A stretch of DNA of 64,000 nucleotides. Source: an uncultured Oscillospiraceae bacterium (GTDB taxonomy: Bacteria > Bacillota > Clostridia > Oscillospirales > Oscillospiraceae). The notes under the pieces were generated by a model, which saw only the letters and a list, made by a program, of their open reading frames with translations, was not told the DNA's origin and ran no database searches. The stretch lies in NCBI GenBank assembly GCA_947626495.1, contig CANQSJ010000001.1, positions 1 to 64,000 on the forward strand, in the 5' to 3' direction. Of this stretch, positions 13,571 to 21,502 are shown in pieces (position 1 is the stretch's first letter; each line of letters starts with the position of its first letter). The translations under genes and the position numbers were made by a program.

Positions 13571-14152
13571 ATGGACTTTTTCAAAGACACCACAGACGAC
13601 ACCTGGGAGAAGCTCCGGGCCGACTGCCGGCACTGCATGGACTGCGAGCTGGGCAAGACCCGGCACAGCCTGGTGTTCGGCGTGGGCTGCGAGAGCGCGG
13701 ACGTGATGTTCATCGGCGAGGGCCCCGGCGAACAGGAGGACCTCCAGGGCGAGCCCTTCGTGGGCCCGGCGGGAAAGCTTCTGGATACCATGCTGGAGCT
13801 GATCGACCTGGACCGGTCGAAGGTGTACATCGCCAACATCGTCAAGTGCCGCCCGCCCCGGAACCGGGACCCGCTGCCCGACGAGCAGGCCGCCTGCATG
13901 CCCTGGCTCACCCGGCAGATCGACCTGGTGGACCCGAAGATCCTGGTCTTCCTGGGCCGCATCGCCGCCATGGCGTTCATCAAGCCCGATTTCCGCATCA
14001 CACGGGAGCACGGCCAGTGGTTCGACGTGGGCGGCCGCCGGGCCATGGCCATATATCACCCCTCCGCCCTGCTGCGGGACCCCGGCAAGCGGCCGGAGAC
14101 CTTTGTGGACCTGAAAACTTTGCAACGGGAGATCAAAAACCTGTATGATTGA
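13571..14152 (+). CDS. Uracil-DNA glycosylase, family 4-like, iron-sulfur type
   Basis: Removes uracil from DNA in base-excision repair. The 193-residue product has the family motifs GEGPGEQED (active-site loop) and YHPSALLRDP (DNA-binding loop). It also has four cysteines expected to hold a 4Fe-4S cluster: the C-x2-C pair near residue 22, the one in VKCRPP and the one in QAACMPW. The start lies 1 nt after the ABC stop and the end overlaps the DUF2156 gene by 8 nt, so it belongs to the exporter operon. Its presence there has no obvious functional logic. Confidence 0.93.
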   Translation: MDFFKDTTDDTWEKLRADCRHCMDCELGKTRHSLVFGVGCESADVMFIGEGPGEQEDLQGEPFVGPAGKLLDTMLELIDLDRSKVYIANIVKCRPPRNRDPLPDEQAACMPWLTRQIDLVDPKILVFLGRIAAMAFIKPDFRITREHGQWFDVGGRRAMAIYHPSALLRDPGKRPETFVDLKTLQREIKNLYD

Positions 14153-15044
14153 GCTGCATCCGGTCACCCTGGCCGACAAGGCCTGGATCGACCCCATTGT
14201 GCTGGCGGAAAACTCCCCCAGCGCGGACTACAACTTCGGCAACATCTTCCTCTGGGACGAGACATACTGCCAGCAGGTGGGCCGCCTGGGCGGGCGGATG
14301 GTAGTGCTGCTGCGCTATGAGCACCACCCCTTTTTCGCCTGGCCCATCGGCACGGGGGACATCGCTCCCGTGCTGGAGGAGATGGGCGCCTACGCCGCGG
14401 CGGAGGGCTTCCCCTTCGTGCTCCGGGGCGTGACGGCGGACCACCTGCCCATCATCCGCGGCCTCTACGGGGACCGCTGCGCCGTCACCGAGGAGCGGGA
14501 CCTGTGGGATTACCTTTACGCCGCGGAGAAGCTGGACACCCTGGCCGGCAAGCATCTGCACGGCAAGCGCAACCACATCCACCGGTTCGAGGAGGAGAAC
14601 GACTGGCGCTTCGTCCCCCTGACGGAGGAGCTGTTCCCCGCCTGCCGCCAGGTACTGGACCAGTGGCTGGCCTCCAGCGGCGAGAACGATGGAGATGGCG
14701 TCTACGACGAATACAAGGCCATCTGCCGCGCCTTCCAACACTACGGAGCGCTGGGCCTTGATGGCGGCGCGCTGCTCAGTTCCGGGAAGGTGGTGGCCTT
14801 CTCCATGGGCGAGATGGCCAGCGCCGACACCTTCGACGTCCATTTCGAAAAGGCGGACGGCGACATCACCGGCGCGTTCACCATGATCAACCGGGAGATG
14901 GTGCGCCACATCCGCGCCCTGCACCCCCAGGTGCAGTGGATCAACCGGGAGGACGACACCGGCCGGCCCAGTCTGCGCCAGTCCAAGCTCTCCTACCACC
15001 CCGACCGGATGGTGGAAAAATATATGGCGGAGTTGAGAATATGA
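14145..15044 (+). CDS. DUF2156 protein (phosphatidylglycerol lysyltransferase C-terminal-like)
   Basis: 299-residue soluble protein of the DUF2156/LPG synthase C-terminal family, which has a double GNAT-like fold. Typical stretches are NFGNIFLWDE, KLDTLAGKHLHGKRNHI, FSMGEMASADTFDVHFEKA and a final INREDDTGRPSLRQSKLSY. No membrane domain is present, unlike full MprF. Members are assumed to transfer aminoacyl groups, but the substrate for stand-alone forms is not known to me. It overlaps both neighbours (8 nt and 4 nt), so co-translation is likely. Confidence 0.88.
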   Translation: MIELHPVTLADKAWIDPIVLAENSPSADYNFGNIFLWDETYCQQVGRLGGRMVVLLRYEHHPFFAWPIGTGDIAPVLEEMGAYAAAEGFPFVLRGVTADHLPIIRGLYGDRCAVTEERDLWDYLYAAEKLDTLAGKHLHGKRNHIHRFEEENDWRFVPLTEELFPACRQVLDQWLASSGENDGDGVYDEYKAICRAFQHYGALGLDGGALLSSGKVVAFSMGEMASADTFDVHFEKADGDITGAFTMINREMVRHIRALHPQVQWINREDDTGRPSLRQSKLSYHPDRMVEKYMAELRI

Positions 15045-15895
15045 ACCAATGGCAGCTGCGTTTCTGGCGGGAGGGCGATCTGCCCGCGCTGCGCGCCCTT
15101 TGGGCGGACGCCTTCGGGGACGACGAGGCGTATATCCGCGCGTTCCATGAGCTGTTCCTCCGGCCCGGCTCCTGCATCGTGGCCCAGGCGGAGGATCAGG
15201 TGGTTTCGGCCATGTATATCCTGGAGGGTCCGGTGCTGTTTCCCCCTGCCGACACCGCCATGTCCGCCGCCTACACCTACGCGCTGGCCACCGATCCCGC
15301 CTGGCGGGGCCGGGGCATCGGCACGGCGGTATACCGTGCCTGCGTCCGGTCGGCGCTGGAGCGGCAGGACGTGGTCTGCGTGCTGCCCGCGGAGCGGTCT
15401 CTGTATGACTTTTACGCCGGCGCCGCCGGCGCGCGGCCGGTGAGCTATATGCGCGAGGGGACCGTCCAGCCGGAGGCGCTTCGCGGCCTCGCCCGCGGCA
15501 GGGCCTCCTCCGTCAGTCCCGGAGAGTACTTTCTGCGGCGCAAGTCCCTGCTGCGGGGCCTGCCCTACACCGTCCTGTCCGGCAGCTTTCTGACCATGGA
15601 GGCCTACACCATGCGGCGCTATGGCGGCGGGTTCTTCTCCGTGGAGGGCGACATCGCCGCCGTGGAGATGGACGGAGACGTGTGCCGGGTAAAGGAGCTG
15701 CTGGCCCCCGGCGGCGACTGGATGGAGGTGCTGGCCGCCCTGGCGGAGCAGTTCCCCGCCCGGTCCTATCACGTCCGCACGCCGGTCTTTCTGCCCGGTC
15801 CGGACGCGGTTGAGCCCTATATGCTGGGCTCCTTCCCGCCCCATGCGGCGGCCCGTCTGCTCCAGGGACTCTGGTGGGGATTTGCCTTCGACTGA
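15041..15895 (+). CDS. GNAT family N-acetyltransferase
   Basis: 284-residue acetyltransferase. The acetyl-CoA binding region is clear (TYALATDPAWRGRGIGTAVYRAC, with the R/Q-x-x-G-x-G/A pattern) and is followed by a long C-terminal region of about 150 residues resembling sterol-carrier-like or Eis-type second domains. The ATG at 15041 overlaps the previous stop as ATGA. It is the last gene of the five-gene exporter operon. Substrate unknown. Confidence 0.85.
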   Translation: MNQWQLRFWREGDLPALRALWADAFGDDEAYIRAFHELFLRPGSCIVAQAEDQVVSAMYILEGPVLFPPADTAMSAAYTYALATDPAWRGRGIGTAVYRACVRSALERQDVVCVLPAERSLYDFYAGAAGARPVSYMREGTVQPEALRGLARGRASSVSPGEYFLRRKSLLRGLPYTVLSGSFLTMEAYTMRRYGGGFFSVEGDIAAVEMDGDVCRVKELLAPGGDWMEVLAALAEQFPARSYHVRTPVFLPGPDAVEPYMLGSFPPHAAARLLQGLWWGFAFD

Positions 15896-15965: not shown

Positions 15966-15998
15966 TTGCTTTCTTTTGTAACATCCGGCCGGTATACT
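15966..15998 (+). promoter_or_regulatory. Possible promoter upstream of the GTPase-nuclease leader
   Basis: TATACT at 15993-15998 is a good -10 box. The best -35 candidate, TTGCTT at 15966-15971, leaves a 21-nt gap, longer than normal, so the -35 is doubtful. The 285-nt stretch 15896-16180 is AT-rich up to here and holds no gene; beyond it lies the hairpin at 16056-16098. Confidence 0.35.
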
Positions 15999-16055
15999 AA
16001 TAATCGCAAGAGTCAGTTTCATCTTTTTCATTTTGTCCTCATTCCATAGGGGAAT

Positions 16056-16098
16056 CGCCGGAACATGGTCGCAAGGTTCCGGCGGTTTTCCTTTTTTT
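16056..16098 (+). terminator. Terminator-like hairpin in the leader of the GTPase-nuclease gene (possible attenuator)
   Basis: Perfect 9-bp stem CGCCGGAAC / GTTCCGGCG (16056-16064 and 16076-16084), 11-nt loop, followed by a T-rich tail to about 16098. It lies 160 nt after the previous stop and 83 nt before the next start, downstream of the TATACT box, so it may work as an attenuator rather than ending the upstream operon. A small hairpin (ATTCC/GGAAT) precedes it. Confidence 0.7.
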
Positions 16099-16180: not shown

Positions 16181-18733
16181 ATGAATCAAAACCTCACCAT
16201 CGGCATCCTGGCCCACGTGGACGCGGGCAAGACCACCCTGTCCGAGGCCATGCTGTATCTGACGGGAAAGATCAAAAAGCTGGGGCGGGTGGACCACCGG
16301 GACACCTTCCTGGACACCCACGATCTGGAGCGGGCCCGGGGCATCACCATCTTCTCCAAGCAGGCCATCCTGCCCCTGGGGGACAGGACCGTGACGCTGC
16401 TGGACACGCCGGGCCACGTGGACTTTTCCCCCGAGGCGGAGCGGGTGCTGCGGGTGCTGGATTACGCCATTCTGGTCATCAGCGGCACGGACGGCGTCCA
16501 GGCCCACACGGAGACCCTCTGGGCGCTCCTGGAGCGGTATCAGGTGCCCACGTTCCTCTTTGTGACGAAAATGGACGTGACCGGCACGGACGCCGCCGTC
16601 CTCATGGCGGACATCCGGACCCGGCTGGGAGAGGGCTGCGTGGACTTTTCCCGCGGCGGCGACGCCCGGGACGAGGCGGTGGCTCTGCTGGACGAGACGG
16701 TGCTGGACCGCTACATGGACGCCGGCTCCCTGGACGATGGCGACGTAATCCGGCTCATCCGGGAGCGGAAGCTGTTTCCCTGCTTTTTCGGCTCGGGGCT
16801 GAAGCTGGACGGCGTGGAGGATTTTCTCGACGGGCTGGCCCGGTATTCCCTCCCCCCTGTCTGCCCCGCCCCCTTCGGCGCCCGGGTCTATAAGATCGGC
16901 CGGGACGGCCAGGGCAACCGCCTGACGTATATGAAGCTCACCGGCGGCAGTCTCTCCGTGCGGGAGCCGGTGCGCTATCTGCCCCTGGGCGGCGCCGCGC
17001 CGGTAGAGGAGAAGATCAGCCAGATCCGCCTGTATTCCGGCGTCCGGTTCGACGCCGTCCCCTCCCTGGAGGCCGGACGGGTCTGCGCCGTGACGGGCCT
17101 CTCCCAGACCTGGCCGGGCCAGGGTCTGGGGACGGAGCCGGACGCCGGCGCCCCCTTCCTCACCCCCGCCATGGGCTACCGGATCGCGCTGCCCAAAGGA
17201 TGCAATCCGCGCGTGATGCTGCCCAAGCTGAAGTCCCTGGAGGAGGAAGAGCCCCAGCTGCACATCCTGTGGCAGGAGCGTCTGGGGGAGATCCAAGTCC
17301 AGCTCATGGGCGCGGTGCAGACCGAGGTGCTCAAGAGCCTCATCAAGGAGCGGTTCGACGTGGACGTGGACATCGCCGACCGGCGGGTGCTGTACCGGGA
17401 GACCATCGCCGACACGGTGGAGGGCGTGGGCCACTTTGAGCCGCTGCGCCACTATGCGGAGGTGCATCTGCTGCTGGAGCCCGGTGCGCCCGGCAGCGGC
17501 ATCGAGCTGGCCACCGCCTGTCCGGAGGACGTGCTGGACCGGAACTGGCAGCGGCTCATCCTCACCCATCTGGAGGAGAAGCAGCATCTGGGCGTGCTCA
17601 CCGGCTCGCCCCTGACGGATGTGAAGATCACCCTCCTCACCGGACGAGCCCATCTGAAGCACACCGAGGGCGGGGACTTCCGCCAGGCCACCTACCGGGC
17701 GGTGCGCCAGGGGCTGATGCAGGCGAAGAGCGTGCTGCTGGAGCCCTGGTACGCCTTCCGGCTGGAGGTGCCCTCGCCGCTGATCGGCCGGGCCATCACC
17801 GACGTCCGGGCCATGGGCGGCGTCCACGACAGCCCCGTCCCCCTGGGGGACCGGACAGTCCTCACCGGCGCGGCGCCGGTGGCCGCCATGGCCGACTACG
17901 CCGCGGATCTGGCGGCCTATACCGGCGGCCGGGGGCGCTTTTCCTGCCACGTGGAGGGCTGCCGGCCCTGCCGCGACGCCGATGCGGTCATCGCCGCCAT
18001 CGGCTACGACCCGGAGGCGGATCTGGAGAACACCCCGGACAGCGTCTTCTGCGCCCACGGCGGCGGCTTCACGGTCAAATGGAACAAGGTGCCGGAGTAT
18101 ATGCACCTGGACAGCGCCCTTCGCTCCCCCGCGGAGCCGGAGCGGCCCGAGAGCCCGGTGCGGGAGCGGAACCTGGACATTGACGAAAAGGAATTGGAGG
18201 CCATCATGACCCGGGAGTTCGGCCCCATCCGCCGGCGGCAGTACTCCGCGCCCCAGGTGAACAGCGCCATCGGCATCGAGCTGGCCGCGAAAAAGCACCC
18301 GGAGCACATCATCGTGGACGGGTACAACGTGATCTTCGCCTGGGAGGAGCTGAAGGCCCTGGCCGCCCAGAGCCTGGATCTGGCCCGGAATCGGCTGCTG
18401 GACAAGCTGGCCAACTACCAGGGCTACACCAAGTGCGACCTGGTGGTGGTCTTCGACGCCTACAAGGTCCCCGGCGGCGCCGGCAGCCGGGAGACCCAGG
18501 GGAAGCTGCACGTGGCCTATACCAAAGAGGGCGAGACCGCCGACATGTACATCGAGCGGCTGGTGGGCGAGATCGGCAAAAACGAGACCGTCCGGGTGGT
18601 CACCTCCGACCGGCTGGTCCAGCTGGGGGCCTTCCGCTCCGGGGTGCTGCGCACCTCCTCGGGGGAGTTTCGCTCCGAGGTGGACTGGGTGCTGGAGCAG
18701 ATCGCCCAGGCGGTGAAACGGACGCAATACTGA
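16181..18733 (+). CDS. TetM-like translational GTPase fused to a YacP/Rae1-type NYN nuclease domain
   Basis: 850 residues. The first 625 or so form a ribosomal-protection/EF-G-like GTPase: G1 AHVDAGKTT, switch region ERARGITIF, G3 DTPGHVDF, G4 TKMD, and EF-G-like later domains ending in YAFRLEVPSPLIGRAI. After a Cys-containing stretch and linker, residues about 705-850 match the YacP NYN/PIN-like nuclease. Acidic residues are visible in IIVDGYNVIFAW (Asp about 713), VVVFDAYKV, ETADMYIE and VVTSDR. In Bacillus, YacP (Rae1) is a stand-alone nuclease that cleaves mRNA in the ribosomal A site; TetM-type GTPases also enter the A-site region. I infer a ribosome-rescue or drug-response role; tetracycline resistance is not shown. 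The start has GGGAG upstream. Confidence 0.9.
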   Translation: MNQNLTIGILAHVDAGKTTLSEAMLYLTGKIKKLGRVDHRDTFLDTHDLERARGITIFSKQAILPLGDRTVTLLDTPGHVDFSPEAERVLRVLDYAILVISGTDGVQAHTETLWALLERYQVPTFLFVTKMDVTGTDAAVLMADIRTRLGEGCVDFSRGGDARDEAVALLDETVLDRYMDAGSLDDGDVIRLIRERKLFPCFFGSGLKLDGVEDFLDGLARYSLPPVCPAPFGARVYKIGRDGQGNRLTYMKLTGGSLSVREPVRYLPLGGAAPVEEKISQIRLYSGVRFDAVPSLEAGRVCAVTGLSQTWPGQGLGTEPDAGAPFLTPAMGYRIALPKGCNPRVMLPKLKSLEEEEPQLHILWQERLGEIQVQLMGAVQTEVLKSLIKERFDVDVDIADRRVLYRETIADTVEGVGHFEPLRHYAEVHLLLEPGAPGSGIELATACPEDVLDRNWQRLILTHLEEKQHLGVLTGSPLTDVKITLLTGRAHLKHTEGGDFRQATYRAVRQGLMQAKSVLLEPWYAFRLEVPSPLIGRAITDVRAMGGVHDSPVPLGDRTVLTGAAPVAAMADYAADLAAYTGGRGRFSCHVEGCRPCRDADAVIAAIGYDPEADLENTPDSVFCAHGGGFTVKWNKVPEYMHLDSALRSPAEPERPESPVRERNLDIDEKELEAIMTREFGPIRRRQYSAPQVNSAIGIELAAKKHPEHIIVDGYNVIFAWEELKALAAQSLDLARNRLLDKLANYQGYTKCDLVVVFDAYKVPGGAGSRETQGKLHVAYTKEGETADMYIERLVGEIGKNETVRVVTSDRLVQLGAFRSGVLRTSSGEFRSEVDWVLEQIAQAVKRTQY

Positions 18734-20755: not shown

Positions 20756-21502
20756 ATGGAAAAAGACCTGGAAAAGCGCATAGAGGAGCTGGCGGAGCGG
20801 TGCGAGCGCCAGAGCGCCGTCATATCCACCGGCTTTCTCACCATGGCCGAGCAGGCGGAGATCTCCGCCTGGGCCAGGCGCCGGGCGGACGTACGGCTGC
20901 ACCTGGACGGGGGCAACCCCGCCTGCGAGCGCAAGTGCGCCTTCTTCCTCCCCTTTTACCTGGAGGAGGCGGACTTCGACCCCGCCGAGTACATCCGCGC
21001 GGTGAAGGTCACCGCCTATTTCGGCGAGCCGGGTCACCGGGACTATATGGGCGCGGCCCTGGGTCTGGGGGTGCGCCGGGAGTGGATCGGCGATTTCTGG
21101 GTCCAGGGGGACGCGGCCACCGTCTTCTGTCTGCCCACGGTGGAGAAGCTGCTGCTGGACGAACTGACCCAGGTAGGGCGCGTCTCGGTGAAGACCGCCT
21201 CCATCCCCCTGGCCGACGTGGCCGCGCCGGAGCGGAAGGTGAAGAAGATGACCTTCACCGTGAAGAGCCTGCGGCTGGACGCGGTGGCGGGCAACCTTTT
21301 CGGCATCTCCCGCACCGCGGCGGCGGAGCTGATCCGCGCCGGGGCTGTTACCCTCAATTACGCCCAGTGCCTGCATGTGGACGCGCCCATATCGGAGGGG
21401 GACGTGATCTCCGTCCGGGGAAAGGGCAAGGGCGCGGTGACCGCTGTGGGCGGCCAGTCCCGCAAGGACAGGACGTTTTTGGAGGCTGAGCTATATCTTT
21501 GA
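20756..21502 (+). CDS. YlmH-like S4-domain RNA-binding protein
   Basis: 248 residues. The N-terminal two thirds match the YlmH family (FLTMAEQAEISAWARRRADV, then YFGEPGHRDYMGAALGLGVRREWIGDFWV), and a C-terminal S4 domain follows (LRLDAVAGNLFGISRTAAAELIRAGAVTLN). YlmH in Bacillus binds stalled or split 50S ribosomal subunits and helps ribosome-associated quality control. The start is the ATG at 20756, one base after the previous stop. It ends at a strong terminator. Together with the GTPase-nuclease at 16181, two ribosome-directed proteins flank this gene set. Confidence 0.9.
   Translation: MEKDLEKRIEELAERCERQSAVISTGFLTMAEQAEISAWARRRADVRLHLDGGNPACERKCAFFLPFYLEEADFDPAEYIRAVKVTAYFGEPGHRDYMGAALGLGVRREWIGDFWVQGDAATVFCLPTVEKLLLDELTQVGRVSVKTASIPLADVAAPERKVKKMTFTVKSLRLDAVAGNLFGISRTAAAELIRAGAVTLNYAQCLHVDAPISEGDVISVRGKGKGAVTAVGGQSRKDRTFLEAELYL

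Follow-up and report, generated by a model that had tools for sequence, protein, structure and literature searches.

The stretch of DNA analysed here, referred to as the window, comprises 64,000 nucleotides from an uncultured Oscillospiraceae bacterium (assembly GCA_947626495.1, contig CANQSJ010000001.1, positions 1 to 64,000). On its forward strand, at 16181..18733, lies a gene for an 850-residue protein in which an EF-G/Tet-like GTPase is joined through a tether to a Rae1-type NYN nuclease. The open reading frame runs from an ATG at 16181 to a stop at 18733, 850 codons without an internal stop, and is matched by the Pfam domains GTP_EFTU, EFG_IV, EFG_C and NYN_YacP, all exceeding their gathering cut-offs and in that order. 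The single intact frame and the two halves read in a preliminary description of this DNA are therefore borne out, and the motifs listed there (AHVDAGKTT, DTPGH, TKMD, VDGYNV, FDAYK, TADMYIE and TSDR) are all found in the protein.

The G domain (residues 4-222, 16190..16846; GTP_EFTU, 3.3e-46) carries the motifs G1 AHVDAGKTT, G2 RGITI, G3 DTPGH and G4 TKMD. It is followed by domain IV (EFG_IV, residues 402-516, 17384..17728) and domain V (EFG_C, residues 518-599, 17732..17977), and the presence of both, along with an EF-G fold, marks the protein as a member of the EF-G-type superfamily. In domain IV, alignment identified loop I as GVGHFEPLRHYAEV (residues 415-428, 17423..17464) and loop III as GRAHLKHTEGGDFR (residues 488-501, 17642..17683), where TetM and TetO have YYSPVSTPADFR. 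A C-terminal extension of the GTPase (residues 601-642, 17981..18106), of the form ..NTPDSVFCAHGGG..VKW..YMH, leads into the tether (residues 643-708, 18107..18304), in which a conserved helix at about residues 669-680 lies between stretches modelled with low confidence (652-667 and 686-704). The NYN/YacP nuclease domain (residues 710-848, 18308..18724; NYN_YacP, 2.6e-44) scores 151.6 bits against a cut-off of 24.6 and contains the acidic residues D713, D759, D788, E792 and D810.

Full-length matches to this protein were found in all 24 same-genus genomes compared, one of them (G014, locus L017) with an in-frame TAG. In a scan of named genomes, the best 80 of at least 589 stretches encoding some relative of the query (not all 589 are fused) were likewise all full-length fusions, with frames of 829-1004 residues, L245 ending at a contig edge. 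These loci come mostly from Oscillospiraceae, Lachnospiraceae and other Clostridia, and the hosts include Intestinimonas butyriciproducens An565, Anaerovorax odorimutans DSM 5092, Ruminococcus flavefaciens FD-1 and Fusibacter sp. 3D3. One of the two seeds of the scan was the loop I motif GH[FY]EPLRH, so the conservation of loop I in the named-genome rows is biased. A chimeric assembly or a chance open frame might be suspected because the window's genome assembly is fragmented and 89.8% complete; however, the same frame occurs in dozens of independent genomes, named strains among them. Since it is full-length in the 24 same-genus genomes and the best 80 named loci, we take chance and misassembly, vanishingly improbable in our judgement, to be excluded, and the assembly error that the preliminary description had named as grounds for doubt was not seen. 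Decayed or mis-assembled fused copies were noted at L017, through its in-frame stop, and at G103:C2, which is split across two frames.

The protein family is already annotated in public records: WP_320690501 from Monoglobus, a full-length relative that is 51% identical, is listed at NCBI as 'translation factor GTPase family protein', a name that states no function. Among 72,556 plasmid records, only two had a match spanning 80% or more of the query. A plasmid record of Limosilactobacillus fermentum DR9 (L127, 4001-5867) holds an unannotated relative (47.6%) of the GTPase half, in two pieces.

We then compared the fused and stand-alone states in a class sample of 137 genomes, all at least 90% complete except the window's own at 89.8%. 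An NYN_YacP domain was present in 92, and sorting by open frame gave 51 genomes with the fusion and 41 with a stand-alone protein of 168-213 residues. The fused frames measured 734-937 residues in 50 genomes, the other being a 351-residue frame in G103, where the bulk of the GTPase is encoded in an adjacent frame; in all 51 the GTPase half was matched on the same contig as the NYN domain. Each fused genome had one NYN copy above the cut-off, with a second, sub-threshold hit in G177, and in none of the 137 genomes did the fusion and a stand-alone NYN protein occur together above the cut-off. Independence of the two states would predict about 15 genomes (51 x 41 / 137) with both, a figure that is only a guide given the relatedness of the genomes. 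As the domain is fused in 51 genomes, alone in 41 and never both, we conclude that the fusion replaces stand-alone Rae1 in the sampled genomes.

Trees of the two halves were consistent with a common origin of the fusions. The GTPase tree was a quick tree that drew long-branch warnings, built from 62 of 79 rows after omission of 17 same-genus rows; in it a single fused gene is entered under two names (L104 and L178), and one copy (L177) is truncated. In it the fused rows form one clade (40 rows, 39 distinct genes; Shimodaira-Hasegawa-like approximate likelihood ratio test, SH-aLRT, 94), an unfused family of eight, which is neither EF-G nor TetM, is sister to them (97), and both lie far from the clade of ribosomal protection proteins (RPPs; SH-aLRT 99, stem 1.49). 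In the NYN tree of 58 rows, from which nine doubled stand-alone loci, L178 and L177 were omitted, one branch divides fused from stand-alone proteins (97/92). Because the fused rows are set apart on both trees, the halves appear to fit, within the sample, one fusion event after which they stayed joined.

The unfused sister GTPase (L159-L166, 647-655 residues) was found in seven of the 137 genomes, with two copies in G163. It has closely similar domain IV loops and the same C-terminal extension, and ends where the tether of the fusion starts; the domain IV tip therefore probably predates the fusion. In three of these seven genomes a stand-alone YacP is encoded as well, which shows that neither half depends on the other for its existence.

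The nuclease half aligns with B. subtilis YacP/Rae1 (PDB 5mq8/5mq9) at an E value of 4e-25 with the acidic positions kept, in agreement with the earlier proposal of kinship to this A-site nuclease. Loss of acidic residues in most homologues, looked for as a sign against nuclease activity, was not seen: D713, D759, D788, E792 and D810 are intact in all 81 fused rows of our alignment. This kinship rests on sequence because the EF-G half fills the PDB comparisons of the whole model, and a single-sequence structure of the isolated NYN domain (mean predicted local distance difference test score 52) was not used. A review places Rae1 among the nucleases that attack A-site mRNA and free the A site for tmRNA-SmpB (PMC12320835). 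The B. subtilis protein shares the NYN family and acidic residues of the fusion but stands alone, is about 170 residues long and has a basic motif at its C-terminus, whereas the fusion lacks this motif and has a GTPase.

This basic motif, of the LEKxR type, was found in 18 of 20 distinct stand-alone Rae1 relatives (27 of 29 rows; the lower count is preferred because nine stand-alone rows are duplicated) but in only 2 of the 81 fused rows. It can be seen from the alignment that 33 of the 81 fused proteins are too short for it and that the NYN domain of the window protein stops before its position. In B. subtilis Rae1 the motif is FEKLRR, ending at Arg166, and rae1 R166P is among the alleles treated as loss-of-function in a suppressor screen carried out in an EF-P-deficient background (PMC6613710). 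The C-terminal tail may thus aid stand-alone Rae1 on the ribosome and would be superfluous once a GTPase docks. Absence of the Arg166 motif is no bar to membership of the Rae1/YacP family, as the motif was found here and is not a published definition. The spacing from H642 to D713 in the 81 fused rows is at least 67 residues (median 83, maximum 151), and the tether helix is conserved (E671 in 76/81, I675 in 78/81), with flanks of low confidence in the model.

The preliminary description had called the other half a full TetM/EF-G-like GTPase. An intact GTPase it is: K17 is kept in 80 of the 81 fused rows (one gap), D75 in all, H79 (the catalytic histidine of DTPGH) in 80, and K130 and D132 in all. 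The TetM part of the claim did not hold. The NCBIfam profile tet_protect, although the top-scoring one, reaches 374 bits over residues 6-592 against a cut-off of 775, and the fused GTPase falls outside the RPP clade of the quick GTPase tree. TetM displaces tetracycline via Pro509 in domain IV loop III (PMC7456112), yet the SPVS/YYSP loop of TetM and TetO that holds this residue is found at the domain IV tip in none of the 81 fused rows, the lone text match (L207) sitting near residue 221. In its place the fused proteins have GRAHxKHTEGGDFR, with H494, T495, G497, G498, D499, F500 and R501 in all rows, H491 in 79 and K493 in 80. Within the fusion family, conservation is highest in domain IV (mean pairwise identity over the 81 rows 0.735; G domain 0.575), which alone is not special because the RPP set shows the same (0.671 against 0.583). 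Between families, compared on chosen rows (10 fused, 7/8 unfused, 7/10 RPP), the fused domain IV has an identity of 0.594 with the unfused sister but only 0.262 with RPPs and 0.234 with the EF-G that the window genome encodes separately (L128), the last a mean of about 23% over the ten fused rows. The fusion thus differs from TetM/TetO in tip loops I and III and adds the C-terminal extension, tether and nuclease. At least four of the 51 fused genomes (G100, G088, G192 and G082) carry separate TetM/TetO-type genes beside the fusion, and the YYSPVS loop was checked in five such genes from fusion-bearing genomes. We conclude from these sequence comparisons that the fusion GTPase is an EF-G-like subfamily of its own and not a TetM. 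A third Tet-like family of Clostridia (L046, L167 and L168), outside both the RPP and fused groups, has another tip, for example HHTIHTHPLDF in L046.

The architecture itself had been described before. In ten Clostridiales species, Atkinson (2015; PMC4342817) reported the same domain order in 'Tet proteins' that carry a YacP-like NYN domain, and the window protein, alike in order and kind of host, belongs with these. That report classes the proteins as Tet and proposes an RNase activity and a possible resistance mechanism. Compared with them, what is new here is the replacement of Rae1, the unfused sister, the non-TetM tip, the loss of the Rae1 motif, the local adjacency to YlmH and the wide distribution. 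A functional study of the fusion was not found in the literature searched, which was mostly open-access with partial lists, so that absence is not established.

A gene for YlmH, an S4-domain ribosome quality-control factor, lies 2.0 kb downstream of the fusion on the forward strand (20756..21502, start chosen from the open reading frame; YlmH_RBD, 4.7e-10), as the preliminary description had noticed, and gives the sole PF17774 match found in the genome. YlmH associates with complexes of the 50S subunit and peptidyl-tRNA, and it can take part in quality control that depends on RqcH (PMC11317155). The window genome also encodes SmpB and an NFACT/RqcH-type protein. YlmH is downstream on the same strand at 20 of 24 same-genus loci, within 190 nt at 15 of these; the four loci without it have 1.5 kb of downstream sequence in three cases and 136 nt in one. 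Among named loci it is downstream in 7 of 76 (the other four of the 80 failed the match filter), and five of the seven overlap by 14-25 nt if the first possible start is used. A neighbourhood conserved across the class was not found, the commonest neighbour cluster, an ABC transporter, occurring at 11 of 81 loci.

Directly upstream of the fusion (window 14145-15895) are genes of the LPG-synthase-C type and for a GNAT acetyltransferase, and at L008 and L009, of the same genus, the apparent GNAT stop overlaps the fusion start. Between these genes and the fusion, at 15976-16096, is a candidate small RNA with a promoter-like site, a terminator-like hairpin and a pyrimidine-rich stretch, about 30 nt long, that is invariant. 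The hairpin was read by eye; a terminator scan reported none, the loop being longer than the scan allows, and there was no Rfam match to the element. In a search of 60 relatives, it gave one match each in 21 of 35 same-genus genomes (its own included) and none in the 25 others. A drug-inducible leader or attenuator of the fusion was considered and rejected, as at 8 of the 21 element loci there is no fusion within 400 nt downstream; for the same reason we treat the element as a separate candidate small RNA that gives no evidence on regulation of the fusion. The complement of its pyrimidine-rich stretch resembles a ribosome-binding site and start codon, which hints that the element could pair with mRNAs.

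How might the two halves work together? We put at roughly an even chance that the fusion is a self-targeting Rae1, in which the EF-G-like module brings the nuclease to stalled ribosomes. The GTPase would bind the factor site of a stalled ribosome with an empty A site, and its specialised domain IV tip would probe the decoding centre. Upon GTP hydrolysis domain IV would depart, and the nuclease, on its tether of at least 67 residues, could swing into the vacated A site and cut the mRNA there, leaving a truncated complex for tmRNA/SmpB or RqcH/YlmH. The preliminary description had proposed delivery of the nuclease to stalled or drug-bound ribosomes; the link to rescue is retained, as YlmH adjoins the fusion in close relatives, but the drug-bound part is disfavoured by the non-TetM tip, the profile score and the separate clade. 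Somewhat more tentatively, and a little short of an even chance, we propose a translational GTPase with its own A-site endonuclease, which has replaced Rae1 in 51 of the 92 NYN-keeping Clostridia sampled and whose tip would read the decoding centre of stalled ribosomes in a new way, neither translocating nor displacing drugs.

Several points weigh against a self-targeting Rae1. Its main weakness is the hand-off, which has to be assumed because a single A site cannot accommodate domain IV and the nuclease at once; timing, or a second ribosome in a collision, would have to account for it. That Rae1 acts in the A site is itself a conclusion of work on B. subtilis, cited here through later papers. 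What we observe is anatomy and conservation, from which the biochemistry is inferred. The clade of fused GTPases, at SH-aLRT 94, is just below the value starred by the program, in a quick tree with long-branch warnings. YlmH adjoins the fusion at none of 34 other class loci (33 of them with at least 1 kb of sequence; two are one gene), so its adjacency is a local arrangement. Finally, a YacP domain is missing altogether from 45 of the 137 class genomes, and the function is therefore dispensable in many.

An alternative to which we give a minor but appreciable chance is that two jobs merely share one chain, an ordinary alternative EF-G-family factor (for example for back-up translocation, ribosome splitting or stall release) passively carrying a Rae1 that cuts in the manner of the stand-alone enzyme. 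The unfused sister GTPase with the same tip in seven genomes, three of them with a stand-alone YacP, would fit this. However, passive carriage does not sit well with the loss from the fused NYN domain of a motif kept by stand-alone Rae1, with a long tether whose internal helix is conserved throughout the family, or with the fusion and stand-alone forms never being found together above the cut-off. It is also conceivable, but in our view unlikely, that the NYN domain cuts rRNA or tRNA on the ribosome and not mRNA, in maturation or to inactivate faulty ribosomes. An EF-G-like module docks near both the decoding centre and the sarcin-ricin loop, which would suit such a target. A role in rRNA/tRNA maturation has indeed been proposed for the YacP-like NYN domain (PMC4342817); against this, B. 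subtilis YacP/Rae1, the closest relative with a known structure (E 4e-25), is described as attacking A-site mRNA (PMC12320835).

Decidedly improbable, we believe, is a resistance protein for tetracycline or another ribosome-directed drug, in which the GTPase would drive off the drug or seek out ribosomes stalled by it, with help from the RNase. The EF-G/Tet-like architecture, tet_protect as the best NCBIfam profile (374 bits) and the placement among Tet proteins with a suggested resistance role (PMC4342817) all speak for it, but the score is far from the 775-bit cut-off, the Pro509 loop is absent from the tip in all 81 rows, and domain IV identity to RPPs (0.26) is near that to EF-G (0.23), with 0.59 to the unfused sisters (chosen rows). 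Moreover, TetM/TetO-type genes are also held by at least four of the 51 fused genomes, each genome has one NYN copy above the cut-off, and plasmid matches covering 80% or more of the query are confined to 2 of 72,556 records.

In eukaryotic no-go decay an analogous job is divided, the GTPase pair Hbs1/Pelota working with an endonuclease that is a protein apart. Little is known of how bacterial endonucleases are directed to stalled ribosomes, and we know of no recruiting factor for Rae1; the fusion, natural and widespread, names a candidate recruiting mechanism that is testable in one protein. Proteins of this kind in gut Clostridia that have been printed as Tet may also be housekeeping translation factors and not resistance genes; the fusion, which many of these bacteria make, probably serves them as an inbuilt means of freeing stuck ribosomes and not as protection against tetracycline.
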